From NCBI GenBank assembly GCA_022870745.1, contig CP085323.1, forward strand, positions 2,666,001 to 2,730,000: DNA of 64,000 bases, written 5' to 3'. The notes beneath the pieces were generated by a model. That model saw only the letters and a program-made list of their open reading frames with translations. It ran no database searches and was not told the DNA's origin. The DNA is from Silvibacterium acidisoli. GTDB taxonomy: Bacteria; Acidobacteriota; Terriglobia; Terriglobales; Acidobacteriaceae. Shown here piece by piece: positions 12,872 through 32,062 of the stretch (position 1 is its first letter; every line of letters begins with the position of its first letter). The translations under genes and the position numbers were made by a program.

Positions 12872-12905
12872 AGCAGGTTCCTCACTTCGTTCGGAATGAC
12901 AAAGG
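12872..12905 (-). repeat. dispersed extragenic repeat forming the 3' end of a gene
   Basis: On the minus strand this reads TGTCATTCCGAACGAAGTGA followed by GGAACCTGCTTTCGC, a repeat core also seen in diverged form at 5003-5033 and 6634-6670. The TGA of the repeat is the stop codon of the GT39-type gene, whose last residues (PLSFRTK) are thus encoded by the repeat. Confidence 0.6.
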
Positions 12906-14258
12906 TTCGGGAGTGATGGCTTTTCTGCCAGATAAGGCGATTGCTCCGAGTGCGATGATCATGGGGAAGCATTCGAGTGTGTAGCGTGGCTCCGGCGCTT
13001 CGATGGTCGCCAGCAGGGCGCAGCGCAGCAGGATGAACAGCACGAAGGCCGCGGCCAGCGGCGGATTCTTACGCAGGCCGAACAATCCCAGCACAAGATA
13101 GAACAGGTTCAGCGCGGCGTAGGCGATGGCGAAGCGCGTCTCTGCGTGATGTTTTCCGTACTGCCACCAGCGCAGCTCGATCCACAGCAGTTCCGTGCGC
13201 GGACGCAGCCACATATCGGCGACGCGTACCAGCGGTAGCACCACATAATAGCGCAGCGGATTGCGCTCGATGCGCTGGGCGGCGAGTTCGCCGAAGCGAT
13301 CGTCGAGCGCGGGCGTGAGCGAGGTGCTCTTGTTGTAGTCGGCCAGCAGCTGCTCGGTTGCAGTTCGTTCGGCAGGCGTATCGAAAGCTCGCGAGGGCAG
13401 GGTCTTGGGATCGACGACATCGCTGTCGATGTTCCAGTAGATCTCCCAGGTGCAGGTCAGGTCGGCGCAGACGGTCTTCGTCCAGCGTTGGAAGCCTGGA
13501 TTGGTGTCCTCGCCCGGATCGGTCGCGTAGCGCGGAGCCAGCGGCTGGACGACGTGAAACGTCCGCCAGTTGCGGATAGCCCACGGCACGAAGGGCAGTA
13601 CGGACAGAGTTCCCACCGCGAACGCGTATCGAAGCATGCGCGCCACGCCCCAGCGCTTGCGTCCATACCAGATTACTGCCGGGAAGAGCGCCACGGCCAG
13701 CAGCGCGCCATCGGGACGCAGCAGCGCGGCATAGCTCCAGCCGAGCGCAGAGACGGCGGCCCACAGCTTCCCCGGATGCTCGAGAAAGCGAACCAGTGCG
13801 TACACCGACACGGCGATAGAGAAGAGCTCCAGCGTCTCTGTCAGCGGAGTAGCTGCGTAGTTTGCAGTAAAAGGGCAGAGGACGGCGAGCCACAGTGCCC
13901 ACCACGCGGCGCGTTCGCTCCAGATCCGGCGCGTGAAGGCGGCGATGAGCAGGCAGGTGCCGAGGTCGATGGCCGTTTGTGCGTACATCACGGCGTGGTA
14001 GTGCTCCATGCCGAAGAGCCGGAAGCAGAGCATGAGAAAGAGCGGATAGCCGGGGAGGCGGATCAGCGTCGGCAGCAGCGATCCGCTCGTGGTGGTGCCA
14101 TACACGCCGTGCAGCATCCAGTTTTTGGCAATGCTGCCGTAGACCAGCGGATCGCCCTGCACTTCAGGATAGGAATGGATGAACCAGAGACGCAGCGTTG
14201 CGCCGGCGATCAGGGCCAGTAAAACCATCCACCAATTGCGAGGCAGCGCTCTTTGCAT
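12882..14258 (-). CDS. GT39-type polyprenol-sugar glycosyltransferase, multi-pass membrane protein
   Basis: A 458-residue integral membrane protein of the ArnT/PMT-like superfamily, which transfers a sugar from a polyprenyl-phosphate donor on the outer face of the membrane. The first helix (WWMVLLALIAGATLRLWF) is followed by a loop with the acidic EVQGDPLVYGSIAKNWM, where the catalytic Asp of this superfamily normally lies. About ten further hydrophobic helices follow, with a C-terminal soluble part interrupted by helices (FYLVLGLFGLR, AAFVLFILLRC). The acceptor is not predictable. The C-terminal seven residues and stop come from an extragenic repeat. It resembles the tandem pair at 52-55 kb in general plan. 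No strong ribosome-binding site precedes the ATG. Confidence 0.75.
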   Translation of the reverse strand: MQRALPRNWWMVLLALIAGATLRLWFIHSYPEVQGDPLVYGSIAKNWMLHGVYGTTTSGSLLPTLIRLPGYPLFLMLCFRLFGMEHYHAVMYAQTAIDLGTCLLIAAFTRRIWSERAAWWALWLAVLCPFTANYAATPLTETLELFSIAVSVYALVRFLEHPGKLWAAVSALGWSYAALLRPDGALLAVALFPAVIWYGRKRWGVARMLRYAFAVGTLSVLPFVPWAIRNWRTFHVVQPLAPRYATDPGEDTNPGFQRWTKTVCADLTCTWEIYWNIDSDVVDPKTLPSRAFDTPAERTATEQLLADYNKSTSLTPALDDRFGELAAQRIERNPLRYYVVLPLVRVADMWLRPRTELLWIELRWWQYGKHHAETRFAIAYAALNLFYLVLGLFGLRKNPPLAAAFVLFILLRCALLATIEAPEPRYTLECFPMIIALGAIALSGRKAITPEPLSFRTK

Positions 14259-14355: not shown

Positions 14356-17300
14356 ATGAAGCAGATCTTTTACGATCCCGATCGCAAGCGGTGGAAGCGT
14401 CTTCGCCGCGTTATGGATGTTGTCGCCGTCAGCTCGACAGTGATTCTGATCCTGTTTTTCCTGAACGTAGTCCGGCGCCAGACCTTGCCGGAACTGCTAT
14501 TGCCGGCTCAAAAACGCAACTATAAGGCGTTACGGCAGCCTGTACAAAATGATGCGTTGCATCGCGCTTTGCAGCGTCCGGCGCGGCGGCACACGCATCG
14601 CCGCCCTTCGGAGATTCCTTTCAACGGTGACGAAGGGCTGCGTGCCGCGTTCTACACGAATGACGAGCCCAGCTATTCAGCGCTGAAGCAGCATGTTCAC
14701 CAGATCGACATGCTCTTTCCCGACTGGCTGCATGTCATCTCGCCGGACGGCAACCTGATCGCCGCGACCTCGCTTTACCCGGTGAACCTTTATCGCGTGG
14801 TCGATGACAAGAATGTCGTGCACGGCATCGATCCTCAGAACAAGGTTCACAGGGTGATTGCTGCCGCGAAGGAAGATACCGAAGTCTTCCCGATGCTCAG
14901 CGATCTGAATCCCGCGAATTCAGAATGGCATGGCGAAATCATTGGGCAAATGCTTGAGAACCCGGCAGCCCGCCACAACCTGCATGTGCAGATCGACAAG
15001 CTGCTGGCTTCGAGCTCGAACTATCGCGGCATCTGCCTCGACTTCGAAGAAATTCCCGAAGAGGATCTGAAGCTCTATGCCGAATGGGTCGGCGCGCTGC
15101 AGCAGGACCTGCACGCCAAGAACCTGCGTGTATACGTGAATGTGCAGGCGAGTGCGCCGGACTGGTTCCTGAAGGCTCTCGGCAAACAATCTGACGGCGT
15201 CATACTGATGAACTATGACGAGCACGAGGACCAGAGCGAGCCTGGGCCGGTTGCTTCACAGGACTGGTTCGAGGCGAACCTGAACCGTGCTCTCAAATCC
15301 ATCCCCAAGCAGAAGCTGATCTGCGGTATTGGGAACTATGGGTACGACTGGACGCAGCCCTTGCCAGTAAAGGGCCAGAAGCCTTCGAACAAGGTGCTCG
15401 ATTCCACGGATTTCAGCGTGCAGGAAGCCTGGCAGCGCGCGACGGATTCTGACGCGGATGTGCACCTCGAAGGCGACGAGCTGAATCCGCACTTTGTTTA
15501 TGACGATGAAGACGCCCATGTGCGTCACCAGGTGTGGTTCCTCGATGCCGTAACAGCATTGAATGAAATGCGTGCCTCGCGCCAGCTTGGCATCAACACC
15601 TTCGGCCTGTGGCGGCTGGGTGAAGAAGATGGATCGCTATGGGCGGTATGGGATCATCCCAGCGCCAAAGACGCCCCGCAGGCGCTGACGAATGTACCGC
15701 CGGGCAACGACGTCGATACGGAAGGTGAAGGCGATATCCTGCGCGTGATCGCGCGGCCGCAGCTTGGCCATCGCACCATCGATATGGATGCGGACAACTT
15801 CACCATCACCGACGAGCGCATGGTGTCGCTGCCCCGCTCGTACACGCTCGAGCAGTATGGCTACAACCCGAAGAAGCTGGCGCTGAGCTTCGACGATGGC
15901 CCCGATCCGGTGTGGACGCCGAAGATTCTCGACATCCTGAAGAAGTACAAGGTCAAGGGCACGTTTCTTGTGATCGGCGAAGAGGCCCAGGACAATGTCG
16001 GGCTGCTCCGGCGTTATATCGCCGAAGGCCACGAGATTGGGAATCACACCTATACGCATCCCGACATCAGCGAAATCTCTGACCAGCAGATTCGACTTGA
16101 GCTGAACCTGACCGAGCGGCTCTTCGCGGCCAAGCTCGGTATCCAGCCGCTCTACTTCCGACCGCCGTATTCGATCGACCAGGAGCCGGATACGAATGAC
16201 GAAGCTGCTCCGGCCGATCGTATTCAGCAGATGGGTTACACCATCATCGGCAACAAGATCGACACCGATGACTGGAACGAGCATCCGCGCAAGACGCCGC
16301 AGGAGATCACCGACGGCGTGCTGGCGCAGCTCGAGCTGATGAAGACGCGTCCGGGCTTTCGCGGCAGCATCATCCTGATGCACGATGGCGGCGGCGACCG
16401 TTCAGCAACGGTCAACGCGCTGCCGTTGCTGATTACCACGCTGCGCGCCAGGGGATATGAGTTAGTTCCTGTATCGGAGCTGATGGGCAAGACGACGGCA
16501 GAGGTGATGCCGCCCATTTCGCCCCAGCTGCGCTGGCAGGCGCGTATTGATTCGGTTGCCTTCTTCTTCTTTGCCTTCTTCAGCCACTTTGTGGTCGATG
16601 TGTTCTTTCTCGGCGACGTGCTGATGAGTGCGCGGCTTATTTTCATCGGTATCTTTGCGCTGATCGATCGCATTCGCCGTCGTCATCCGCCGGCGAGCGA
16701 TGAGACGCCGCGTGTCGCGGTCATCATTCCTGCATACAACGAAGAGAAGGTGATCGCGCGTACGATTCGTTCGGTCCTCAACTCGGATTACCCGAACCTG
16801 CACGTGATTGTGATTGACGACGGCTCGAAGGATAAGACCTTCGAAGTCGCGCAGGCCGCGTATCCCGATGAGATCGCCTCGGGCCGGCTGCTGGTGCTGA
16901 CGAAGCCGAATGCGGGCAAGGCCGAGGCTCTGAATTACGCCCTGAACTACACGGAAGAAGAGATCTACGTCGGCATCGATGCGGATACGGTAATCGCTTC
17001 CGACGCAGTATCGAAGCTGGTCACGCACTTCTCCGATCCGCGAGTAGGAGCCGTCGCGGGAAATGCCAAGGTCGGCAATCGAGTGAACCTTTGGACACGC
17101 TGGCAGGCGCTCGAATACATCACCAGCCAGAACTTTGAGCGGCGAGCGCTCGATCTGTTCAACGTGGTCACGGTTGTGCCTGGGGCGATTGGCGCGTGGC
17201 GCACCGGCCCGGTTCGCGCAGCAGGCGGCTACCCTATCAACACGGTTGCCGAAGATGCCGATCTCACCATGAACCTGCTCGAGCATGGCTACAAGGTGAT

Positions 17301-17862
17301 CTACGAAGACCGTGCGCTGGCCTTTACCGAGGCTCCGACGACGGCGAATGGCCTGATGCGCCAGCGCTTCCGCTGGTCATTCGGAACGCTGCAGGCGATC
17401 TTCAAGCACAAGCAGGCCTTCCGTACGAACCGCGCCATGGGCTTGTTCGCGCTGCCGAACATTCTGATCTTCCAGCTCATGCTGCCGCTGGTGTCTCCGT
17501 TCATCGACCTGATGTTTGTCGCCGGGGTGATCCATTACTTCGTCGACCGCTATTTCCATCCCGAGGCCGCAAGCGCTGCCAGCTTTGAGAAGCTGCTCAC
17601 GTACTTCCTCACGTTTCTCATCATCGACTTCGTTACGTCGGCGCTCGCATTTTCGCTCGAGAGAAAGCATCCGGCGAATAAGGGCGATAAATGGCTGCTT
17701 TTTCACATATGGTTGCAGCGCTTTGCTTATCGCCAGGTTTTTTCTATCGTTCTCTTCAGAACAATGAAACGCGCGATTGACGGGCGTCCTTTTGCATGGG
17801 ATAAGTTAGAGAGGACGGCAAAAATGTCCAGCCAGACGGAGCGAATCACGGCCGGTCAATAA
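14356..17862 (+). CDS. trimodular GH18-like / NodB deacetylase / GT2 glycosyltransferase fusion
   Basis: A 1168-residue membrane protein with three enzyme modules. A cytoplasmic Arg/Lys-rich start and one helix (about residues 24-41) lead to a GH18-like domain (about 90-440) with GICLDFEEIP near 225-234, a variant of the family's DxxDxDxE motif. A NodB-type deacetylase follows (about 505-720) with SFDDGPD near 513, GNHTYTHPD, YFRPPYS and LMHDGGGDRS. Two or three helices lead to a GT2 domain (about 785-1030) with VIIPAYNEE, VIDDGS, GIDADT, AEDADL and the QRFRW product-binding motif, then C-terminal helices. This resembles PgaC/IcaA-type synthases joined to their processing enzymes. It may make, trim and deacetylate a GlcNAc polymer; substrate and polarity are inference. 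Start ATG 14356 lacks a strong ribosome-binding site. Confidence 0.85.
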   Translation: MKQIFYDPDRKRWKRLRRVMDVVAVSSTVILILFFLNVVRRQTLPELLLPAQKRNYKALRQPVQNDALHRALQRPARRHTHRRPSEIPFNGDEGLRAAFYTNDEPSYSALKQHVHQIDMLFPDWLHVISPDGNLIAATSLYPVNLYRVVDDKNVVHGIDPQNKVHRVIAAAKEDTEVFPMLSDLNPANSEWHGEIIGQMLENPAARHNLHVQIDKLLASSSNYRGICLDFEEIPEEDLKLYAEWVGALQQDLHAKNLRVYVNVQASAPDWFLKALGKQSDGVILMNYDEHEDQSEPGPVASQDWFEANLNRALKSIPKQKLICGIGNYGYDWTQPLPVKGQKPSNKVLDSTDFSVQEAWQRATDSDADVHLEGDELNPHFVYDDEDAHVRHQVWFLDAVTALNEMRASRQLGINTFGLWRLGEEDGSLWAVWDHPSAKDAPQALTNVPPGNDVDTEGEGDILRVIARPQLGHRTIDMDADNFTITDERMVSLPRSYTLEQYGYNPKKLALSFDDGPDPVWTPKILDILKKYKVKGTFLVIGEEAQDNVGLLRRYIAEGHEIGNHTYTHPDISEISDQQIRLELNLTERLFAAKLGIQPLYFRPPYSIDQEPDTNDEAAPADRIQQMGYTIIGNKIDTDDWNEHPRKTPQEITDGVLAQLELMKTRPGFRGSIILMHDGGGDRSATVNALPLLITTLRARGYELVPVSELMGKTTAEVMPPISPQLRWQARIDSVAFFFFAFFSHFVVDVFFLGDVLMSARLIFIGIFALIDRIRRRHPPASDETPRVAVIIPAYNEEKVIARTIRSVLNSDYPNLHVIVIDDGSKDKTFEVAQAAYPDEIASGRLLVLTKPNAGKAEALNYALNYTEEEIYVGIDADTVIASDAVSKLVTHFSDPRVGAVAGNAKVGNRVNLWTRWQALEYITSQNFERRALDLFNVVTVVPGAIGAWRTGPVRAAGGYPINTVAEDADLTMNLLEHGYKVIYEDRALAFTEAPTTANGLMRQRFRWSFGTLQAIFKHKQAFRTNRAMGLFALPNILIFQLMLPLVSPFIDLMFVAGVIHYFVDRYFHPEAASAASFEKLLTYFLTFLIIDFVTSALAFSLERKHPANKGDKWLLFHIWLQRFAYRQVFSIVLFRTMKRAIDGRPFAWDKLERTAKMSSQTERITAGQ

Positions 17863-18099: not shown

Positions 18100-19026
18100 A
18101 TGCTCTCCCCGCTCCGGACAGTCGCCGCTCTGATTGTTTCGCTACCGTTAACAACATGTTGTTTCGCTCAACATTCAGGAAATGCAGCAGTTACGGCTGG
18201 TGTCGATGCTGCCCCAGCTGCCCAGGTCAGTTTCTCGTCGAGCCGCAGCGCGTTGCTGGCTCTGGACGCCGCGGATGGGATGGGTGAGGGAGCAGCAGCG
18301 CCTGCCCCGGCTGCCGGCGCAGGCGGGCATGCGCCCGTTCTTGCCACTGCTGGCGATGATTCATGGTTCTTTAAGAAGTTTGCCTTCGGGGCAACGGTCA
18401 GTCCGCTGGGCATAAGCGTCGGTTCGGCGACGTCGCTCACCCGCGGGGTGAATATGCGGGTCCAGGGAAACTTTTTCAACTACAGCTTCAACCAGTCGAT
18501 TTCCGGCGTGAATTTCGATGCAACGGCCAGCCTGCGTTCGATCCAGGGACAGTTCGACTGGTTCCCGTTCCAGCGCAGCAGCTTCCATGTGAGCCCGGGC
18601 GTGCTGTTCTATAACCAGAACGAGATCACCGGCAACGGGCTTGTGACCCAGAACGAGTCGATCACCTTCAACGACACGGACTACTACAGCCAGAGCACCG
18701 ACCCGCTTCATGGCACGGGCGGAGTCTTCTTCCGCAAGACTTCACCGATGCTGACGGTGGGCTGGGGCAACTGGGTACCGCGCCGCCGCGAAAAGCACCT
18801 GACATTTCCTATCGATGTAGGCTTCGCCTACGTTGGCGACCCGAAGATCGACATCACCATGGCAGGCTCGGTATGCCAGGGAGCGCATGACTTCGAGTGC
18901 GGTCCGGTTCAGACCGATCCCAGCTTCCAGTCAAACCTGAATGCGCAGATCGCGAAGTACCGGCAGGATCTGAACGTCATCCGCTTCTACCCGGTCATCT
19001 CAACGGGAATTGTTTACAAGTTTTAA
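18100..19026 (+). CDS. outer-membrane beta-barrel-like protein of unknown function
   Basis: A 308-residue exported protein. A signal peptide (MLSPLRTVAALIVSLPLTTC, CFAQ) is followed by an Ala/Gly/Pro-rich linker (about 60-85) and a region of alternating hydrophobic and polar residues typical of beta strands (ATVSPLGISVGSATSL, RVQGNFFNYSF, GQFDWFPF, HVSPGVLFYN). It ends in a strand finishing with Phe (VISTGIVYKF), as expected for outer-membrane insertion. AAGGA lies 8 nt before the ATG. It is 237 bp downstream of the GH18-NodB-GT2 fusion on the same strand, so a role in polymer export is possible but unproven. A strong terminator follows. Confidence 0.65.
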   Translation: MLSPLRTVAALIVSLPLTTCCFAQHSGNAAVTAGVDAAPAAQVSFSSSRSALLALDAADGMGEGAAAPAPAAGAGGHAPVLATAGDDSWFFKKFAFGATVSPLGISVGSATSLTRGVNMRVQGNFFNYSFNQSISGVNFDATASLRSIQGQFDWFPFQRSSFHVSPGVLFYNQNEITGNGLVTQNESITFNDTDYYSQSTDPLHGTGGVFFRKTSPMLTVGWGNWVPRRREKHLTFPIDVGFAYVGDPKIDITMAGSVCQGAHDFECGPVQTDPSFQSNLNAQIAKYRQDLNVIRFYPVISTGIVYKF

Positions 19027-22326: not shown

Positions 22327-23979
22327 ATGGGTAAGCCGGTCATTCTCGCGGTTGACGATGACGTAAGTGTTCTGGAAGCAGTGGTTCAAGACCTGCGCCG
22401 GAAATATGGCGCCGAGTACCGCATCCTGCGCGCCGCCTCCGGCCAGGCTGCGCTTGATACCTGTCAACAGTTGCAGCAGCGGGGCGATGCCGTCGCTTTG
22501 TTTCTGTCGGATCAACGCATGCCGGGAATGTCCGGCGTGGACTTCCTGGAGAAGTCGCAGCAGATCTATCCGGAGGCGAAGCGCGCGCTGTTGACGGCGT
22601 ACGCCGATACCGAGGCTGCGATCCGCGCAATCAATACGGCAAAGATCCACTACTACCTGACCAAGCCGTGGGATCCGCCGGAAGAACAGCTCTATCCGGT
22701 ACTGGACGATCTGCTGGAAAACTGGACCGAGAAATACCGGCCGATTTTCGAAGGGATCCGGGTGGTCGGGCCACGGTGGTCAGCGCTGGATTTCCAGGTG
22801 AGAGACTTTCTTTCGCGCAACCAGGTGCCCTACGAGTGGCTCGATCCTGAGCGCGACAGCAAGGCGTTTGAGCTGCTGAACCGCTATCAGCTTGACGATC
22901 GTAAGCTGCCGGCGGTGTTGTTTGCCGATGGAAGCTCGCTGGTGCAGCCGAGTCAGACAGCACTGGCGGAGAAGGTCGGCCTTCGGACGCATGCGGAGAG
23001 GGACTTTTACGACCTGGTAGTGGTCGGAGCGGGGCCGGCAGGTCTGGCTGCCGCCGTATACGCGACCTCGGAGGGGCTGCGCACGCTTGTGGTCGAGCCG
23101 GAGGCGCCGGGCGGCCAAGCAGGCTCGAGTTCAAGGATTGAGAACTATCTCGGTTTTCCGTCTGGCCTTAGCGGGGCGGACCTGGCGCGGCGCGCCTATG
23201 TACAGGCATCGCGCTTCGGCGCGGAGTTCCTGACCCAGTGCGTGACCGGCCTCCGCGCGGAGAACCAGTACCGCCTGGTTCGCACCAGCGACAACCGGGA
23301 GATCTCCTGCAACGTATGCCTGCTGTCGGTCGGCGTGAACTATCGCCGGCTGAATGCTCCGGGCATTGACCGGCTCACGGGTGCCGGGGTTTATTACGGC
23401 GCGGCGCTGGTAGAGGCCCGATCCTGCGGAGATGAGGAGGTTTTCATCGTCGGCGGGGCCAATTCGGCCGGCCAGGCGGCGATGCACTTCTCAAAATATG
23501 CCCGGAAAGTGACGATGTTGGTACGTGCGGAGTCGCTTGTCCAGAGCATGTCAAAATATTTGATCGATCAGATCGCTGACACATCGAATATTGTGGTGGA
23601 GACCTGCGCCGAGGTGGTTGAGGCCATCGGTGAGGGCCGTCTGGAGGCAATCAGGATCAGGACCGACGAGGGCGAACAGACCCGAGCGGCCTCCGGATTG
23701 TTTATCTTTATTGGCGCTGCTCCTTCGATTCACTGGTTGCCGGAGACACTGATGCGCGATCCGAATGGGTTTGTGCTGACAGGAAACGACTTAAAGGTCG
23801 ACGGCAAGCTGCCGCGCTGCTGGAAGGAAGATCGAGAGCCCTATCTTCTCGAAACCAGCATGCCGGGGGTGTTCGCTGCCGGGGATATCCGGCACGGATC
23901 GGTGAAGAGGGTGGCATCGGCAGTAGGCGAGGGCTCGATCTCGGTCCAGTTTATGCATCAATATTTGGCACGTTTTTAG
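22327..23979 (+). CDS. response regulator fused to thioredoxin-reductase-like flavoprotein
   Basis: A 550-residue fusion. Residues about 5-130 are an intact receiver: VDDD (10-12), phosphoacceptor Asp62 in FLSDQRMPGMSG, and LTKPWDP with the conserved Lys. Residues about 140-215 look like a thioredoxin/glutaredoxin-fold insert (VVGPRWSALDFQVRDFLSRN, VPYEWLDPERD) without a CxxC. Residues about 228-550 are a class II thioredoxin-reductase-type flavoprotein with FAD loop GAGPAG (234-239), GGQAGSSSRIENYLGFP, NAD(P)H loop GGANSAGQ (376-383) and MPGVFAAGDIR. The redox CxxC of true TrxR is replaced by YYGAALVEA (356-364). It may thus be a phosphorylation-controlled NAD(P)H oxidoreductase or redox sensor. 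The kinase gene starts 17 bp later. Confidence 0.85.
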   Translation: MGKPVILAVDDDVSVLEAVVQDLRRKYGAEYRILRAASGQAALDTCQQLQQRGDAVALFLSDQRMPGMSGVDFLEKSQQIYPEAKRALLTAYADTEAAIRAINTAKIHYYLTKPWDPPEEQLYPVLDDLLENWTEKYRPIFEGIRVVGPRWSALDFQVRDFLSRNQVPYEWLDPERDSKAFELLNRYQLDDRKLPAVLFADGSSLVQPSQTALAEKVGLRTHAERDFYDLVVVGAGPAGLAAAVYATSEGLRTLVVEPEAPGGQAGSSSRIENYLGFPSGLSGADLARRAYVQASRFGAEFLTQCVTGLRAENQYRLVRTSDNREISCNVCLLSVGVNYRRLNAPGIDRLTGAGVYYGAALVEARSCGDEEVFIVGGANSAGQAAMHFSKYARKVTMLVRAESLVQSMSKYLIDQIADTSNIVVETCAEVVEAIGEGRLEAIRIRTDEGEQTRAASGLFIFIGAAPSIHWLPETLMRDPNGFVLTGNDLKVDGKLPRCWKEDREPYLLETSMPGVFAAGDIRHGSVKRVASAVGEGSISVQFMHQYLARF

Positions 23980-23996: not shown

Positions 23997-25436
23997 ATGG
24001 CAGAAAACACGATTTCGCTGGACGTTCAGAAAGTTTCCGCTCGCGAGCTGCTTGCGGAATTCCGTCAGATCCCTATTTTTCAACACGTGAAAGAACAGGA
24101 TCTCGAATGTCTGGGCGAAATAGATATCGTCCACGTTGCAGCAGACACAGTGGTGATCGAGCCGGGGACTCCGGAACTTTATTTCTGGATACTGCTGGAA
24201 GGCGAAGTTCGCGTCAACAAACCGGAAGCAGATGGTGGAGACACCCTGCTCGGCACGCTGAAGCACGGTGACACCTCCGGCGAAGTGGCCCTGCTGACAG
24301 GCGCGACGGCGACTTCGGTGCGTGCGGTTGCGCTGATGCCAGCGCGCGCCATCCGCATGAGCGCCTCAAGCTTCTGGAGCCTGATGGGGACCTGCCCCAC
24401 GGTTCGTTCGGGGATTCTGTCGAACATGGGCCGCCGCCTTGAGGCCTACCAGATGATCACGCTGCACAGGGAGAAGCTGATCTCACTGGGCACCCTGGCC
24501 GCCGGACTGATGCATGAGCTGAACAATCCAGGAACCGCTGCGAAACGGGCAGCGTCGCAGCTTCGGGAGAACCTGACCCGGCTGCAGGAGATCAGCCTGC
24601 GATTTACCCGCATGGCGTTGACTCCGGAGCAGAAAGACTGCATGCGGAACCTGCAGCAGGAGGTGCTGCGGTCGTGCAGGTTTGCCACGATCAGCACCCT
24701 GGACCAGGCGGACGCAGAGGACGAGCTGGCCGACTGGCTGGATAGCATTGGAGTTGTGAACGCCTGGCAACTGGCTCCGACCCTGGTTGCAATCGGCTGG
24801 AAACGCGAAGATATCGAATGCGCCCACGCCGCTTTCCCTGCAGAGATTCTCAGCGACACCCTCAACTGGCTTACCTCCCTTATCTCCAGCATTCAGCTTG
24901 TCGGCACTGTGGAAGAGAGCATCACCCGGGTTACAGACCTGGTGGTCGCGGTAAAGAAGTACGCCTATGACGACAAGAGCCGCCAGCGCGAAATCGACGT
25001 GCATGAAAGCATCATCAGCACGCTGACTATCCTTGCGCATAAGTTCCGGCATAAAGGGATCGCCATCGAGAAGAAGTTTTCGCCGGATATGGCGAAGGTG
25101 AAGTCGTCGGGTACCGGCCTGAGCCAGGTGTGGACGAACATTCTCGACAATGCGATCGACGCGGCGCCGGAAGGCGGGAAGATTGTCATTCGCACGTGGA
25201 TGGAAGGCAGCGAGGTGCTGGTCGGTATTTGTGACAATGGACCGGGCATTTCCATGGAAGACCGGCAGAAGATTTTCGAGCCCTTCTTTACGACCAAGGC
25301 GGTCGGCGTAGGCACGGGGCTTGGACTTGATATCGCGCATCGTGTCGTGGTGGGCCAGTTCAATGGCGACATCACCTTTAACTCCGAGCCGGGGTCGACG
25401 GAATTCATCGTTCGGCTGCCATCGGAAAAGAAGTAG
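23997..25436 (+). CDS. histidine kinase with N-terminal cyclic-nucleotide-binding-like domain
   Basis: A 479-residue soluble sensor kinase. Residues about 25-140 form a cNMP-binding-type beta-roll (FQHVKEQDLECL, GEVRVNKPEADGG, GEVALLTGATATSVRAV); the phosphate-binding cassette is short, so ligand binding is uncertain. A helix leads to the HisKA-like motif SLGTLAAGLMHELNNPGT with phosphoacceptor His173, followed by an unusually long helical region (about 180-330). The HATPase domain has the N box (VWTNILDNAIDAA), G1 (CDNGPGI), F box (FEPFFTTK) and G2 (GTGLGLDIAHRVV). No membrane segment. It is 17 bp after the receiver/reductase fusion and is very likely its cognate kinase in a cytoplasmic redox-signalling pair. 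Confidence 0.87.
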   Translation: MAENTISLDVQKVSARELLAEFRQIPIFQHVKEQDLECLGEIDIVHVAADTVVIEPGTPELYFWILLEGEVRVNKPEADGGDTLLGTLKHGDTSGEVALLTGATATSVRAVALMPARAIRMSASSFWSLMGTCPTVRSGILSNMGRRLEAYQMITLHREKLISLGTLAAGLMHELNNPGTAAKRAASQLRENLTRLQEISLRFTRMALTPEQKDCMRNLQQEVLRSCRFATISTLDQADAEDELADWLDSIGVVNAWQLAPTLVAIGWKREDIECAHAAFPAEILSDTLNWLTSLISSIQLVGTVEESITRVTDLVVAVKKYAYDDKSRQREIDVHESIISTLTILAHKFRHKGIAIEKKFSPDMAKVKSSGTGLSQVWTNILDNAIDAAPEGGKIVIRTWMEGSEVLVGICDNGPGISMEDRQKIFEPFFTTKAVGVGTGLGLDIAHRVVVGQFNGDITFNSEPGSTEFIVRLPSEKK

Positions 25437-25594: not shown

Positions 25595-26479
25595 ATGTTT
25601 GCGATCGTTGGCATTCTGCTGGTCTTCGGGGCAGTTATCGGTGGCTTTCTCATGGAGAAGGGGCATCTTGCTGTTCTGCTGCAACCGGCCGAGTTTCTGA
25701 TTATTGCCGGCTCCGCAGCCGGCACTCTGTTGATTGCGAACCCGATGCACGTCGTGAAGAAAATCCTGTCGGGCACATTCAGCATTTTTGGCAAGGCGCC
25801 TTTCGGCAAGGAACGCTACATCAGCACCCTCAGGATGATGTATGAGCTGCTGAATAAGGCCAGGCGCGGAGGCATGCTGTCTATCGAGGACGACATCGAG
25901 AAGCCGGCAGAGAGCGTGCTCTTTCACCCCTATCCGCAGTTTCTGCGTGACGAACACATCCGTGACTTTGTATGCGACACGATGCGCATGGCTGTAACGG
26001 GTGGCGTAGAGCCATTCGACGTGGACCAGATGATGGACCTGGACATGGAAGTACGGCATCGGGAGACGAATCAGCCCGTCCATGCGCTGACGGCGGTTGC
26101 CGAGTCGCTGCCGGGGCTGGGCATTATTGCGGCGGTGCTGGGTGTCGTTATCACCATGGGCGCACTGGGCGGGCCTCCCGATGCGATCGGGCACAAGGTG
26201 GCTGCGGCGCTGGTAGGTACGTTTCTTGGCATCCTGCTCTGCTATGGGCTGGTGGGGCCTATCGGCGCGTACATGGGTAAGGCCGCGGAGGATGAGCATG
26301 CCTTCCTGTATGTGCTGCGGGTGCTGATGGCGTCCTTTATTAAGGGAAATCCCCCGGTGCAGGCGGTGGAGATCGCGCGGAGGGCGATTCCGCTGCATGT
26401 GCGGCCGAGCTTTGAAGAGGTAGAGGCAGCCTGCCGTGGAGAGCAGTCGGGCGCGAGGATGCAAGAGGAGGCTGCGTAG
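25595..26479 (+). CDS. motA: flagellar motor stator protein MotA
   Basis: Stator subunit of the proton-driven flagellar motor. The 294-residue length is typical for MotA. It starts with the MotA signature (MFAIVGILLVFGAVIGGFLM) and PAEFLIIAGSAAGTLLIANP, then a cytoplasmic loop (about 65-170) with RRGGMLSIEDDIEKP, and the last two helices LPGLGIIAAVLGVVITMG and VGTFLGILLCYGLVGPIG. The conserved Pro before the third helix and the Gly-rich fourth helix are present. motB follows by 9 bp. No other flagellar gene is nearby in the window, so the rest of the motor must be encoded elsewhere. Confidence 0.95.
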   Translation: MFAIVGILLVFGAVIGGFLMEKGHLAVLLQPAEFLIIAGSAAGTLLIANPMHVVKKILSGTFSIFGKAPFGKERYISTLRMMYELLNKARRGGMLSIEDDIEKPAESVLFHPYPQFLRDEHIRDFVCDTMRMAVTGGVEPFDVDQMMDLDMEVRHRETNQPVHALTAVAESLPGLGIIAAVLGVVITMGALGGPPDAIGHKVAAALVGTFLGILLCYGLVGPIGAYMGKAAEDEHAFLYVLRVLMASFIKGNPPVQAVEIARRAIPLHVRPSFEEVEAACRGEQSGARMQEEAA

Positions 26480-26488
26480 CGCATCGGC

Positions 26489-27394
26489 ATGGCGAAGAGG
26501 AAAACCACCATCCTGATCAAGAAGGTCCAGCCGCAGGCGGTCCGGCACAGTGGTGCGTGGAAGGTCGCCTACGCTGATTTTGTAACCGCACTGATGGCGC
26601 TTTTCATCGTGTTGTGGCTGATGAATACGAGCGACCAGGTGCGCAAGCTGGTCGCGGGTTATTTCAATGACCCTATGGGCAGAGCATCGGTTACGGGCAC
26701 CGATCGCTCCGGCTCAGCGGACAACCTGCCGCTGACGAAGAGCAATGTAAAGCAGTTGAAGCAGCGCCTGGAGCACGCGATTGAGCAGATGGCCGATCTG
26801 AAGGCGCTTGCGAAGCAGATCGAGATCACGGTGACGCCTGAAGGACTTCGGATCGAGCTGATGGAGACGAAGAACGGCGCTTTTTTCGAGACCGGGAGCA
26901 CGGCGCTGAATGCCAGTGGCCGGGAGCTGCTGGGTTTGATTGCAAAAGAGCTTGGCGACATTCCCAACAACATTTCCATCGAAGGACACACGGACGCTCA
27001 GCCTTATTCCGACCCTGGGGGGTATGGAAACTGGGAGCTGTCGACAGACAGGGCCAATGCGGCGCGCAGGCTGATGCAGAGTACGGGGCTCCGTACCAAC
27101 CAGGTTTCCCAGGTTCGCGGCTATGCGGACCAGAAGCTGCGCCTGCCGGAGCACCCGCTTGATCCGTCGAACCGGCGAATTTCCCTGATCGTTCAGTACA
27201 TGGAGCGCTTGCCGGCTCCAGCCGCCGCTCCCATAGCCGTGACCGTTTCAAAGCCAGCTGGGGAAATGCCGGGCGCCTCCCAGGCATCTGCAGCCAAAAC
27301 CGCGGCGCCGATGGTTGCTGCTGAGCCGGCCAAGCCTGCTTCACCGGCGGCCCGGATTGCGGAACAATTGTTGGCCCGGCTGCATCGACATTGA
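26489..27394 (+). CDS. motB: flagellar motor stator protein MotB
   Basis: Peptidoglycan-anchoring stator subunit. The 301-residue protein starts with a basic cytoplasmic tail (KRKTTILIKKV), then the single helix with the essential proton-carrying Asp (WKVAYADFVTALMALFIVLW). A plug/linker region follows, then an OmpA-like domain (about 125-235: FFETGSTALNASGREL, ISIEGHTDAQP, ANAARRLMQSTG) that binds the cell wall. The C-terminal tail (about 240-301) is an Ala/Pro-rich extension, probably disordered. It forms an operon with motA, with 9 bp between them. Confidence 0.95.
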   Translation: MAKRKTTILIKKVQPQAVRHSGAWKVAYADFVTALMALFIVLWLMNTSDQVRKLVAGYFNDPMGRASVTGTDRSGSADNLPLTKSNVKQLKQRLEHAIEQMADLKALAKQIEITVTPEGLRIELMETKNGAFFETGSTALNASGRELLGLIAKELGDIPNNISIEGHTDAQPYSDPGGYGNWELSTDRANAARRLMQSTGLRTNQVSQVRGYADQKLRLPEHPLDPSNRRISLIVQYMERLPAPAAAPIAVTVSKPAGEMPGASQASAAKTAAPMVAAEPAKPASPAARIAEQLLARLHRH

Positions 27395-27679: not shown

Positions 27680-30600
27680 ATGGATGGCAGGCGGATGCCG
27701 AAGAGAATTACCCGTTATCTTGTATCGCTTTTTACACTTTTTGTTCTGTGTCAATTCATCAGCATCTATCTCAGCTGGCCCAAGCAGTTCATTCTTGGCG
27801 GCGTCAGCGTCGTCCTGGCCATTGCTCTCAACAGGCTCAATAAATCGCGCATTACCACGATCGCCCTGATGTTTCTTTCGATCGGGGCCACGCTCCGCTA
27901 TGGATGGTGGCGTGTGCGTTCGATCATTGAATTCTTTTCGAACGAGGCGAATACCCGCGTCGGCATCGATGCCTTCCTGATGCTGTTGCTGCTTTCAGCG
28001 GAAGCTTACACGCTGGTCATCATGGTGCTGGGCTACATGCAGACGGCGTGGCCGCTGCATCGCGAGCCCATTCCGTTGCCTGCCGACGAAGAAGAGTGGC
28101 CGCATGTCGACGTCCTTATCCCGACATACAATGAACCGCTGTCTCTGGTTCGCTATACGGCGCTCGCCGCGGTCAACATCGACTATCCGCCGGAAAAGCT
28201 GCATGTCTACATCCTTGACGACGGCACTCGCGCGGACTTCCGCCAGTTTGCGGAAGAGGCCGGCATTGGCTACGTGGTGCGCGAGAAGCACAACCATGCG
28301 AAGGCAGGGAACATCAATCATGCGCTGACGCAGATGTCGTCGCCGCTGGTGGCGATCTTCGATTGCGATCACGTGCCCACGCGCAGCTTTCTGCAGGTCA
28401 CGGCGGGATGGTTTCTTGCCGATCCGAAGCTGGGCATGCTGCAGACTCCGCACCATTTCTATTCGCCGGACCCTTTCGAGCGAAACCTGACGCGCTACAA
28501 GACGATTCCGAATGAAGGCGAGCTCTTTTACGGGCTCATCCAGGATGGCAACGACTTCTGGAATGCCACGTTCTTCTGCGGCTCCTGCGCGGTGCTGCGG
28601 CGTACTGCTCTGAACGATGTTGGCGGTGTCGCGGTCGAAACCGTCACCGAGGACGCGCATACCTCGTTGAAGATGCAGAAGCGCGGCTGGAACACTGCAT
28701 ACATCAATATTCCGCAGGCTGCGGGGCTGGCGACGGAGACACTGTCGGCGCACGTGGGGCAGCGTATCCGCTGGGCGCGCGGCATGATTCAAATCATGCG
28801 TGTCGACAACCCGTTGCTGGCGCGGGGACTCAAGTTTACGCAGCGGCTCTGCTATTTCAATGCGATGGCGCATTTTCTTTATGCCGTGCCAAGACTGGTC
28901 TTCCTGTGCGCGCCGCTGGTGTACATGTTGCTGGGCCGCACGATCATTCCCGGCTACTGGGTTGTGATTGTTGCGTATGCGCTGCCGCACCTGGTGCTCT
29001 CGAGCCTTACCAACTCGCGTATCCAGGGCAAATTCCGTCATTCGTTCTGGAACGAAATTTACGAGACGGTGCTTGCGCCTTACATCCTCGCGCCAACGCT
29101 GCTGGCTTTGATCAATCCGAAGCTGGGCAAGTTCAACGTGACGGACAAGGGCAGCACCCTGGCTGAAACGCGTTTCGACCGGCACATCGCAGCTCCGGTG
29201 TCTTGGATGATGTTCCTGAATTTGCTGGGCATGCTGATGGCTCCTTACCGGCTCTTCGTTCTCGATCCTCAGCATCCGGGAACGGTGATTGCCAATCTCT
29301 TCTGGATTGTCTTCAACATGGTGATCCTTGGTGTGTCGGCCGCGGTTGCATACGAGCAGCAGCAGCGGCGCTCCTCGGTGCGCGTGGATGTGAGGATTCC
29401 GGTGAGAATTACATTGCCGGATGGCCACATTCTTGAAGGTACGACGGTCGATATGTCTGTCGGTGGATCGGATATTCGCGTCGCGCGCCCGGAGAATGTC
29501 TCCTATCGCGATGTGCTGCATCTATCTTTCCCGCAACATACCGGCGATGCCGAAGTGCCGGCGCGGGTGGTGGGCATCAAGGGCGAAGGCATGCGGCTGA
29601 AGTTTGAGCCGATGAGCATCGCTGAGCAGGAGACGCTGACGCGTGCCATTTACTCGCGGGCCGATGCGTGGCTCGATTCGCGCCGTACCGGCGAGGTAGA
29701 TCGTCCGCTGCTGAGCCTGGCGCGCGTGATCCGGTTGTCTTTTATCGGCATCAAGCAGGTGGCCAAGAGTGTCGTCACGAAGCAATCCAGCGGCGGCAAA
29801 GAACTGCCGGTGGCGCGAACCGCAAGCACGATCCTGTTATTCCTTCTGCTGTTCGTGCCGGCGCGGCTTACGGCACAGATCACGTCTGTCGATCCTGCTG
29901 CTGAAGCCGCGGTAAAGGCCACCGACAGGACTTATGAGGTCAGCCTGAAGGATATGGGCGCTCCCGGCACGATCGAGATGCATGGTCCGCATTCCTTCTA
30001 CTCGGTACATTTCACGTTGCCTCATGCCCTGGTGCCGGGAAAGGCGTTGCTGAATTTGAACTACCGCTTTGCTCCGGGACTGGCTGCGAATTCCGGGTCG
30101 TTCAAGGTCGCGATCAATAACACGAATTTTGCCACGCTGCAGGCGCCTTCAAGTCCGGGGCAGAGCAACGACTACTCTTTCACGACACTGACCGTTCCTG
30201 AAGACATGCTGGCGCGTGAGAATACGCTGACGTTCGAGTTTAACGGGAGCGGCGTGATGCAGTCGGAGGTCCAGGAGCGCGCGAACGTACTGGGAAGTAT
30301 CGGTGTCTCTTCAACACTGCAGGTAAGCGGGGAAGCGATTCCGATGAGCAACGATCTGAGCCTGCTGCCGCTTCCGTTGCTCGATACTGACCTGCAGACC
30401 TCGACCACTATCCCCTTCGTCTTTCTGACGCAGCCTACCGTCGGCACATTGCAGGCAGCAGGGGTGGTGGCATCGTGGCTTGGTTTGCTCTCCGGTCCGC
30501 GCCCGGTGAAATTTACCGCATCGGTCGGTGTGATTCCTCCCGGCAATGTCGTCGTCTTTTCCAACCTGCCGGCCCAACTGCCTGAATCGCTGCAGTATCC

Positions 30601-32062
30601 TTCGGCGGCCAATGCCTACGTCGCGCTGCGCCGCAATCCTAACGACCCGACCGGCAGCGTGCTTGTTCTTGGCGGGCGAGACGACGGGCAGTTGCTTGCG
30701 GTTGCGCAAAGTCTTGCCCTGAAAGCGAAGGTAAGCCAGGCGGGCGCGCACATGAGTGGGGCACTGCACGGCGATACCTACACGCTGAGTGATTATCGTC
30801 TTCCCGATCCGCGTGAGAACGATGACGCACCTCGCTGGATGCCGACGGACAAGCTTCTGTCGCTGGCAGACTTCGGTGCGCCCGGTTCGCTGGTCAGCGA
30901 CGGATCCGAGTCGCTTCCGGTGTATTTTCGTGTGCCGCCCGATCTGTTCTATGGAGAGATGCAGCAGCTTCATCTGCATGTCGAATATCGTTACAACGCG
31001 CAGGCGCTCGCCGCGGGATCTGCCTTGCGTATTTACCTGAACGGAATGCTGATCAATGAAGCGCCTTTGCCTGCGGGAGAGGGAACGAGCGACCGTAAGC
31101 GTGAGGTGATGGTGCCGGTAACGGAGATGCGTCCGTTCGGAAACACATTGCGCTTTAATTTTGACTTTGTCCCGCGTGATCGCAGCCACATCGGAGAGAA
31201 TGCCGCTTCTACGTTGCACGGAGAGGTGTTGCCGGCTTCGACGCTCGACATCCGCGGATTCAGCAACTGGGCGAAGATGCCTGACATCGAGCTGTTCTCA
31301 AATGCCGGTTTCCCTTTTACGCAGAAGGCCGATCTTTCCGAGACGACCGCCGTGCTGCCTGCGGCGCCCAGTCCTGATGAGATCGCACTCTACCTGCAGA
31401 TGATGGCGCACTTCGGCACGCAGACAGGTTATCCGGTGCTGAGGGTGACCGTGGCGGGTCCGGATACATCCATCGCGAGCGATCGCGATTACCTGATTCT
31501 CGGAACAGTGGCAGACCAGCCTGCGTTCCATTCGCTTGCCCCTTATCTGCCGGTTACATTCGACGTGAACGGGATACATATCAAGGAGATCAGCAAGCTG
31601 CTCTCGCCCTTTCAGGCACTGTGGAACAAGATCGACGGAGAGTTTGAGGAACCTCATTATCCTTCGAGCCGGGGCGGAATGCCCGATGCGATGATCGAAG
31701 GCTTTGAATCTCCGTACGCCTCCGGCAGATCGGTGGTCCTGGTGGCGCTTAAGGATGATGCATCGAGGAAAGACTTTGTAGGGGCCTTCCTTGAGCGCTA
31801 CCAGTCAAGCGATATTGCGCACACGGTCAGCCTGTTGCGTGGCGGACACTTTACGTCCTACGACGCGAAGACGACGGTCTACCACGTAGGCAATATCTCC
31901 TGGTACACGCGCTTGCGTATCTGGCTTACCCAGTACTTCTGGGTGCTGCTGCTGGCAGGAGGAGCTTTGAGCCTGCTGGTTGCGTCATGGACCAATGACT
32001 ACCTTGCAGATCGAGCCAGAAGGCGGATTGGCGTGGCCGAACTGCGCAAGGCTATGAGTTAG
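27680..32062 (+). CDS. cellulose synthase BcsA-BcsB fusion
   Basis: A 1460-residue inner-membrane synthase with both subunits of bacterial cellulose synthase in one chain. The BcsA half has N-terminal helices, a GT2 domain with LDDG (about 178-181), FDCDH, TEDAH (about 322-326) and GQRIRWARG (QxxRW, about 359-367), further helices, and a PilZ domain (about 560-680) with QQRRSSVR and DMSVGG, the signature for c-di-GMP binding. A hydrophobic linker near 715-735 (TILLFLLLFVPARLTAQ) may act as an internal export signal. The BcsB half (about 740-1420) is periplasmic, and a final helix (FWVLLLAGGALSLLVA) anchors it. The start may be ATG 27680 or 27695. No bcsC or bcsZ follows; the next gene is convergent and overlaps its 3' end by 11 bp. 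Confidence 0.92.
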   Translation: MDGRRMPKRITRYLVSLFTLFVLCQFISIYLSWPKQFILGGVSVVLAIALNRLNKSRITTIALMFLSIGATLRYGWWRVRSIIEFFSNEANTRVGIDAFLMLLLLSAEAYTLVIMVLGYMQTAWPLHREPIPLPADEEEWPHVDVLIPTYNEPLSLVRYTALAAVNIDYPPEKLHVYILDDGTRADFRQFAEEAGIGYVVREKHNHAKAGNINHALTQMSSPLVAIFDCDHVPTRSFLQVTAGWFLADPKLGMLQTPHHFYSPDPFERNLTRYKTIPNEGELFYGLIQDGNDFWNATFFCGSCAVLRRTALNDVGGVAVETVTEDAHTSLKMQKRGWNTAYINIPQAAGLATETLSAHVGQRIRWARGMIQIMRVDNPLLARGLKFTQRLCYFNAMAHFLYAVPRLVFLCAPLVYMLLGRTIIPGYWVVIVAYALPHLVLSSLTNSRIQGKFRHSFWNEIYETVLAPYILAPTLLALINPKLGKFNVTDKGSTLAETRFDRHIAAPVSWMMFLNLLGMLMAPYRLFVLDPQHPGTVIANLFWIVFNMVILGVSAAVAYEQQQRRSSVRVDVRIPVRITLPDGHILEGTTVDMSVGGSDIRVARPENVSYRDVLHLSFPQHTGDAEVPARVVGIKGEGMRLKFEPMSIAEQETLTRAIYSRADAWLDSRRTGEVDRPLLSLARVIRLSFIGIKQVAKSVVTKQSSGGKELPVARTASTILLFLLLFVPARLTAQITSVDPAAEAAVKATDRTYEVSLKDMGAPGTIEMHGPHSFYSVHFTLPHALVPGKALLNLNYRFAPGLAANSGSFKVAINNTNFATLQAPSSPGQSNDYSFTTLTVPEDMLARENTLTFEFNGSGVMQSEVQERANVLGSIGVSSTLQVSGEAIPMSNDLSLLPLPLLDTDLQTSTTIPFVFLTQPTVGTLQAAGVVASWLGLLSGPRPVKFTASVGVIPPGNVVVFSNLPAQLPESLQYPSAANAYVALRRNPNDPTGSVLVLGGRDDGQLLAVAQSLALKAKVSQAGAHMSGALHGDTYTLSDYRLPDPRENDDAPRWMPTDKLLSLADFGAPGSLVSDGSESLPVYFRVPPDLFYGEMQQLHLHVEYRYNAQALAAGSALRIYLNGMLINEAPLPAGEGTSDRKREVMVPVTEMRPFGNTLRFNFDFVPRDRSHIGENAASTLHGEVLPASTLDIRGFSNWAKMPDIELFSNAGFPFTQKADLSETTAVLPAAPSPDEIALYLQMMAHFGTQTGYPVLRVTVAGPDTSIASDRDYLILGTVADQPAFHSLAPYLPVTFDVNGIHIKEISKLLSPFQALWNKIDGEFEEPHYPSSRGGMPDAMIEGFESPYASGRSVVLVALKDDASRKDFVGAFLERYQSSDIAHTVSLLRGGHFTSYDAKTTVYHVGNISWYTRLRIWLTQYFWVLLLAGGALSLLVASWTNDYLADRARRRIGVAELRKAMS

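Follow-up and report, generated by a model that had tools for sequence, protein, structure and literature searches.

The window analysed here is a stretch of 64,000 nucleotides from Silvibacterium acidisoli (contig CP085323.1, positions 2,666,001 to 2,730,000), and the element in question is a gene at 14356-17862 on the forward strand. It encodes, in a single uninterrupted frame, a protein of 1168 residues carrying, by Pfam, a GH18 glycoside hydrolase module, a CE4 deacetylase module and a GT2 synthase module, in that order. The original prediction, made from the letters of the sequence, had given exactly this position, strand and open frame. The gene is the sole full-length copy in the one-contig genome of 5.36 Mb, and its closest named relatives belong to the Acidobacteriaceae (Silvibacterium, Acidipila and others), with an identity of up to 81%; the cultured Silvibacterium bohemicum and Acidipila rosea carry relatives (L013 and L014). 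Among 93 loci of this family, the whole protein lies in one frame in 82, ten are cut by contig ends with a frame that stays single for its available length, and one, on the metagenome contig L060, has a frame broken between GH18 and CE4. On one Sulfitobacter plasmid (L109), the GT2 sits on a separate frame. It could be surmised from these isolated departures that an artefact of assembly or annotation has joined separate genes; the 82 of 93 single-frame loci indicate that the fused gene is no assembly accident, 26 distant full-length homologues are likewise fused, and we regard this explanation as negligible. A frameshift between the modules, which had been raised as a possible objection, is not supported by these loci.

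Catalytic modules of the fused protein

All features of the gene lie on the forward strand. The GH18 module (residues 96-445, 14641-15690), of the SleL/YdhD type, is delimited from Pfam, the AlphaFold2 model, Foldseek and alignment, and has its catalytic D229-F-E231 at 15040-15048; its Pfam match (Glyco_hydro_18, PF00704, residues 198-422) barely passes, with 30.4 bits against a cut-off of 29.6. A strand-rich linker (residues 447-503, 15694-15864), seen in the model, without a Pfam match and recognisably alike in 11 distant homologues, leads to the CE4 or NodB-type deacetylase module (residues 504-712, 15865-16491; Polysacc_deac_1 at 504-607, 106 bits). The GT2 synthase module then follows (residues 785-1017, 16708-17406; Pfam GT2 families at 785-1010, 120 bits), both of the latter modules being assigned from Pfam, NCBIfam and alignment. 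The three motif sets that had been read in the open frame are all present, namely LDFEEIP (D229, E231) in GH18, SFDDGPD (D513/D514) and HTYTHPD (H564, H568) in CE4, and DADT (D875, D877), AEDAD (E966, D967) and QRFRW (Q1003, R1006, W1007) in GT2, which also holds the aspartate pair D821/D822.

The conservation of these residues was evaluated in 108 full-length homologues, 82 from Acidobacteriaceae and 26 distant ones with 32-43% identity, truncated sequences having been dropped. The CE4 residues D513, D514, H564, H568, R602, D639 and H676 and the GT2 residues D821, D822, D875, D877, E966, D967, Q1003, R1006 and W1007 are kept in 108/108, as is D229 of GH18, and E231 is kept in 107/108, the exception being L106 with a serine. 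Since they are retained across both the Acidobacteriaceae and the distant homologues (25 of 26 for E231), the named motifs are not chance occurrences. A wider alignment, with six Acidobacteriaceae sequences among its 61 rows (query not counted), retains all the listed CE4 and GT2 residues in 61/61. An N-terminal motif found across phyla, [IVL][FY]xDP, was rejected as a universal signature and is simply common, occurring in 50 of 62 rows, with some of the misses due to over-long frame starts.

At the structural level, Foldseek, alignment and conservation agree on a GH18 TIM barrel with the catalytic D-x-E. The top Foldseek match is the Chromobacterium violaceum chitinase 5jh8 (TM-score 0.86 over the target), and the D-F-E aligns with the DFE of YdhD, of this chitinase and of SleL. 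The classical GH18 motif is DxxDxDxE, whose outer aspartates are missing in the query and likewise in the aligned YdhD, SleL and 5jh8; because the D-F-E aligns with these three enzymes, the lack of the outer aspartates can be considered normal for this GH18 subgroup. A module devoid of its catalytic acid, which had been foreseen as another objection, is therefore not what the locus encodes. Other Foldseek matches comprise SleL/GH18 chitinases, hyaluronan and cellulose synthases, and a peptidoglycan N-acetylglucosamine (GlcNAc) deacetylase. The CE4 module combines Polysacc_deac_1 with the D-H-H metal site and catalytic motifs of the NodB homology domain, and the GT2 module presents the DD, DxD, ED and QxxRW motifs of a processive enzyme, with predicted membrane helices C-terminal to the core.

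Predicted membrane layout and proposed product

The AlphaFold2 model, computed from 58 sequences, has a mean predicted local distance difference test score (pLDDT) of 79.2 and a predicted template modelling score (pTM) of 0.63, and orders the protein as a helix at 11-39, the GH18 barrel, the linker, CE4, a helix at 723-773, GT2, and helices at 1026-1063, 1076-1101 and 1114-1141. The first helix (14386-14472), of low pLDDT and coinciding with a hydropathy peak at 16-44, follows a positively charged N-terminus and would be a membrane anchor. The long helix 723-773 (16522-16674) is predicted, from hydropathy and the model, to cross once from periplasm to cytoplasm. Although the hydropathy of 729-774 can be read as one segment or two, a single crossing, by which GT2 lies inside and CE4 outside, is backed by the model with moderate confidence (block pLDDT 56-88); basic stretches precede the first helix and come after helix 723-773. 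Two predicted C-terminal membrane helices (residues 1026-1101, 17431-17658) are joined by a short loop, with a pLDDT below 50 at 1059-1079, and the last helix (17695-17778) is probably an interface helix as in NodC. The layout of NodC has been mapped as a transmembrane segment running out-in, a core inside, an in-out and an out-in segment and an interface helix, with the N-terminus outside (PMC4132801). The GT2 end of the query resembles this arrangement, and a periplasmic CE4 fused ahead of the synthase would fit the external N-terminus of NodC. The predicted layout would thus consist of an N-terminal anchor, periplasmic GH18 and CE4 modules, one helix, a cytoplasmic GT2 and a NodC-like membrane end, in agreement with the earlier suggestion that the synthase faces the cytoplasm and that the two N-terminal modules lie outside.

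We propose, with a probability of about 0.68, that this single protein makes and extrudes a beta-linked GlcNAc polymer, removes part of its N-acetyl groups and trims it. The cytoplasmic GT2 would polymerise GlcNAc, presumably from UDP-GlcNAc, and may push the chain through its own membrane helices in the manner of NodC, HAS and BcsA. On the periplasmic side, the fused CE4 would strip acetyl groups from the chain and the fused GH18 would cut or trim it. The identity of the polymer, the action of the three modules on one chain and the order in which they act are what we infer from this arrangement. The synthase-deacetylase-hydrolase fusion of GlcNAc-polymer type that had been suggested is backed by homology and prediction.

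The linkage of the polymer can be considered from the relatives of each module. Among NCBIfam models, PgaC_IcaA (TIGR03937) scores highest for the GT2, with 193.3 bits against a cut-off of 422.3; NodC (TIGR04242) reaches 104.3 of 550 bits and NodB (TIGR04243) 117.8 of 240. It can be tentatively hypothesised that the product is poly-N-acetylglucosamine (PNAG, beta-1,6), as with MatB of Streptomyces, the GH18 being adapted to beta-1,6 bonds or cutting something else. This proposition is consistent with PgaC_IcaA as top model and with the synthase motifs, since the AEDADLT/QRFRW of the query fits the EDxD ... QRxRW pattern of PgaC (TEDIDIS/QRLRW) and not NodC (GEDRHLT/QQLRW). In the GT2 core, the query shares 47.7% identity with a CE4-GT2 protein of Streptomyces and 46.5% with one of Kocuria, and MatB makes PNAG although its CE4, too, is of the NodB/PgdA type (PMC5972031). 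However, the overall GT2 identity is 29% to Escherichia coli PgaC and 29% to NodC alike, and the CE4 is not of the PgaB type (17% identity in a poor alignment), the PgaB model having matched only another gene of the genome. GH18 enzymes, moreover, are known for acting on beta-1,4 GlcNAc linkages.

This last property belongs to a second form of the proposal, possible although doubtful, in which a chitin- or chitosan-like beta-1,4 chain would be converted to chito-oligosaccharides by what amounts to a periplasmic NodB-NodC plus a chitinase in one chain. The nearest solved relatives of the GH18 are a chitinase and the spore enzymes SleL and YdhD, the CE4 shares its motif order and 37% identity with NodB, and the membrane layout is NodC-like. 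On a Kocuria plasmid, a separate gene annotated as chitinase (L107:9990-10976), with a weak GH18 match of 22.9 bits, below the cut-off, adjoins the two-module CE4-GT2 gene. The PgaC/MatB-like, rather than NodC-like, synthase motifs and the low NodC score speak against this form. Between synthase motifs like those of PgaC and a deacetylase and hydrolase like beta-1,4 enzymes, the balance may lean slightly to PNAG.

The purpose of the cutting step can be approached from homologues that have lost the catalytic glutamate. In the wider alignment, E231 is a glutamate in 58 of 61 rows, the exceptions being L106 (S), L197 (T) and L198 (R), and the split Sulfitobacter gene L109, scored apart, has a serine with its first two CE4 motifs intact. 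L106 and L109 are from Sulfitobacter, all four are of the roseobacter type, and they cluster together in both domain trees (where L197 and L198 are labelled L137 and L138). A DUF3131 gene adjoins L106 and L197 and lies about 2 kb from L198; it was looked for near L109 and not found there, and a structure search with the DUF3131 protein gave no match. Because one lineage has lost this residue, cleavage would not be essential everywhere. It could even be supposed that the GH18 serves above all for binding or guiding, with catalysis secondary, as Asp229 and the CE4 motifs stay where the glutamate is replaced (S, S, T, R), the listed CE4 and GT2 residues stay in the three full-length Glu-less homologues, and GH18 diverges faster than CE4 (51-69% versus 71-83% identity across the same 10 Acidobacteriaceae rows). 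Nevertheless, Glu231 is kept in 82/82 Acidobacteriaceae and in 58/61 wider rows, and we find this supposition quite improbable. An action of GH18 on peptidoglycan, to make local room in the wall for the chain or for an exporter, would agree with the presence of the spore cortex-lytic SleL and YdhD among the closest structures. It is nonetheless unlikely, since the closest fold match is a chitinase and the protein's own product is the simpler substrate, given the place of the GH18 between anchor and deacetylase in the synthase chain. The lineage in which the glutamate has been lost naturally lends itself to testing what purpose cutting serves.

Several observations weigh against a one-protein machine that makes, deacetylates and trims a GlcNAc polymer. 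The GH18 is only just above its Pfam cut-off, and the absence of its catalytic glutamate in the four roseobacter-type homologues means that the hydrolase step is not universal. Among 35 matching NCBIfam models, each of the 25 listed scores about half of its cut-off or less, so that family membership assigns neither donor nor product. An outer-membrane exporter was not identified in searches for the Pga helpers; other exporters were not searched for. In these searches, PgaD (TIGR03940) gave no match in the genome, and among 14 control genomes only E. coli matched. No gene of the genome passes the cut-off for PgaA (best 38.5 of 366.65 bits, for a model that also matches 12 of the 14 controls, one of them above the cut-off) or for PgaB (a single match, in a gene other than this one, at 67.4 of 321.9 bits).

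Distribution and genomic neighbourhood

In a sample of 396 genomes of the phylum, 99 match at E <= 1e-30, many through GT2 alone. The gene is present in 43 of the 44 genomes of this sample whose family is read as Acidobacteriaceae (the miss being G388), and the three-module protein is ordinary within its group. Among the 352 other Acidobacteriota, 25 genomes have long matches and one (G127) a partial one, across seven families by hand count. Six of 299 genomes match at E <= 1e-60 in a Pseudomonadota sample around L073, three of them along almost the entire query and two from about residue 217-220 onwards, while the L073 genome matches in two contig pieces; 28 of 197 match at E <= 1e-100 in the family of G609. 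A plasmid search gave 1171 matching records, of which 20 cover at least 80% of the query in one place, from Deinococcus, sphingomonads, Prevotella nigrescens, Sulfitobacter and Limimaricola; among the 40 matches listed, three actinobacterial plasmid records cover CE4-GT2 only. The GH18-CE4-GT2 order is common to other Acidobacteriota, Deinococcus, sphingomonads, roseobacters and Prevotella, which bears out the earlier remark that similar architectures occur in some phyla.

At the evolutionary level, quick trees were built on subsets (10 Acidobacteriaceae rows for CE4 and 8 for GT2, with duplicates and the L073 pieces dropped). The CE4 domains of three-module proteins form one group of 43 rows with a support of 83, apart from two actinobacterial CE4-GT2 proteins. 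The GT2 tree also has one group of 43 rows (support 96), with 41 three-module proteins and two long-branch intruders, the actinobacterial pair again lying outside. The intruders, NodC and one transferase of the same genome, probably reflect long-branch attraction; PgaC, NodC and the own-genome outgroups lie on long branches, and their tree positions are not trusted. These trees suggest a single old fusion as the simplest reading.

Beside the gene, 97 bp away and divergent, lies a gene for a GT-C-type membrane glycosyltransferase (Pfam PMT_2, 12882-14258, reverse strand), a possible partner. It is present in 43/43 Acidobacteriaceae loci whose upstream flank measures 4.5 kb or more. Of the loci L009-L102 with an upstream flank of 1.3 kb or more, 82/83 have it, the sphingomonad contig L073 being the exception. 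In the other Acidobacteriota it is near the gene in 5 of 20 loci (2 divergent, 3 downstream; some flanks are short). The serS gene, a 117-aa gene and a LolA-like gene occur in 29, 29 and 30 of the 43 Acidobacteriaceae loci, which we take for common conservation of gene order; as serS and LolA reach only 29 and 30 of 43, PMT_2 is more closely tied to the gene than such conservation would explain. Since it stands beside every testable Acidobacteriaceae locus, the GT-C enzyme may be a partner. The view of a self-contained machine is therefore retained in part: it fits a genome without a PgaD match and with PgaA and PgaB below cut-off, but not a contribution of this neighbour. A structure search with PMT_2 gave no useful match, NCBIfam one match far below cut-off, and a scan of the divergent gap no promoter-like site. 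The downstream genes were dropped as partners because few loci share them: where 7.5 kb or more follow the gene (27 loci), its 308-aa neighbour at 18100-19026 recurs in 2, and the next four genes recur in 9, 3, 7 and 8. A defence-related role was rejected, PADLOC giving no match, and neighbour clustering in 29 Pseudomonadota regions minus 11 gave no clear partner.

Three sphingomonad copies (L104, L108, L111), taken from 11 sphingomonad rows among the matches listed, eight of them from one genus, have within about 5 kb a VirJ/AcvB-family gene, an MprF-type lysyl-phosphatidylglycerol synthase (904 bits against a cut-off of 600 in L111) and a response-regulator/histidine-kinase pair, in an arrangement that differs between the three. 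In 29 other Pseudomonadota regions, VirJ and MprF were each found in none, a related response regulator in 3 and a related kinase in 1. AcvB, which is of importance at low pH, hydrolyses the lysyl-phosphatidylglycerol that the MprF homologue LpiA produces (PMC13197417). These clusters suggest, and no more, an envelope-charge role of the three-module protein in sphingomonads. An extended version of the proposal, which we hold to be very doubtful, would be a stand-alone chitosan or chito-oligosaccharide factory encoded by one gene in non-symbiotic soil Acidobacteria. Its beta-1,4 chain would be deacetylated and cut in the periplasm, and the adjacent GT-C enzyme would attach the fragments to an acceptor in the envelope, so that the surface bears a cationic glycan; in sphingomonads, the protein would join the lysyl-phosphatidylglycerol genes in raising the positive charge of the envelope under regulation.

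Other genes were observed in passing. In Deinococcus (L103:11594-13129), a GAF-GGDEF diguanylate cyclase gene lies directly downstream of the three-module gene on the same strand. Elsewhere in the window, a response-regulator domain is fused to a pyridine nucleotide-disulphide oxidoreductase at 22327-23979, followed by a gene with cyclic nucleotide-binding and kinase ATPase domains at 23997-25436. A BcsA-PilZ-BcsB cellulose synthase fusion of 1460 aa (27680-32062, forward strand) comes just after a MotA/MotB-like pair (25595-27394) and has a second match elsewhere in the genome, near 3314731, in a frame of 1485 aa.

Significance and comparison with known systems

If the proposal is true, a widespread and apparently unstudied family builds and processes a GlcNAc polymer via one protein without the known Pga helpers. 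It would provide a compact model for the coupling of synthesis, deacetylation and cutting, would endow Acidobacteria with a further glycan of matrix or envelope, and would make the choice between beta-1,6 and beta-1,4 directly testable. Five annotated full-length homologues are named 'glycosyltransferase' or 'glycosyl transferase family 2', and no description of a GH18-CE4-GT2 fusion was found in the open-access literature, a weak negative judged by titles and abstract openings, with one query covering the best 20 of 51. What is known are the halves (MatB, PgaC, NodB, SleL-type GH18); the three-module order is apparently unstudied.

The closest described counterpart is MatB of Streptomyces, with an external NodB-like CE4, one transmembrane link and an internal PgaC-like GT2 (PMC5972031, PMC4391728). 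This half-protein layout matches the predicted one of query residues about 490-1168, the C-terminal 58%. The likeness is by description, the actinobacterial CE4-GT2 proteins L107 and L110 having stood in for the sequence comparison. As described in these papers, MatB lacks a GH18, belongs to a monoderm host and requires MatA, a protein without known domain and suggested to be IcaD-like (PMC5972031, PMC4391728). MatB with MatA is needed for PNAG, as seen by monoclonal antibody F598 and removed by dispersin B (PMC5972031), and thus demonstrates that this polymer can be the product of a PgaC-like GT2 to which a CE4 of the NodB/PgdA type is fused (PMC5972031, PMC4391728). Glycosyltransferase-deacetylase fusions without PgaA or PgaD, with untested product, are reported among divergent Gram-negative pgaB clades (PMC7112194). 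Like the query, they unite both activities in one chain; they are described there without a hydrolase domain and with an N-terminal glycosyltransferase, the GH18-CE4-GT2 order is not named in that account, and the main text of PMC7112194 holds no mention of Acidobacteria. In Rhizobium, NodB and NodC are separate proteins without a GH18, and the EDRH/QQLRW of NodC differs from the query. SleL/YdhD and the C. violaceum chitinase (5jh8) share fold and D-x-E with the GH18, and these solved proteins are not fused to a synthase. The PgaABCD system of E. coli likewise brings together a GT2 synthase, a deacetylase and a glycoside hydrolase for a GlcNAc polymer, PgaB carrying a GH153 domain (PMC5933820). 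As the original prediction rightly stated for Pga/Ica, these jobs are split between proteins, being spread over PgaC/PgaD, PgaB and the outer-membrane PgaA, whereas the protein of S. acidisoli has synthase, deacetylase and hydrolase in one chain.

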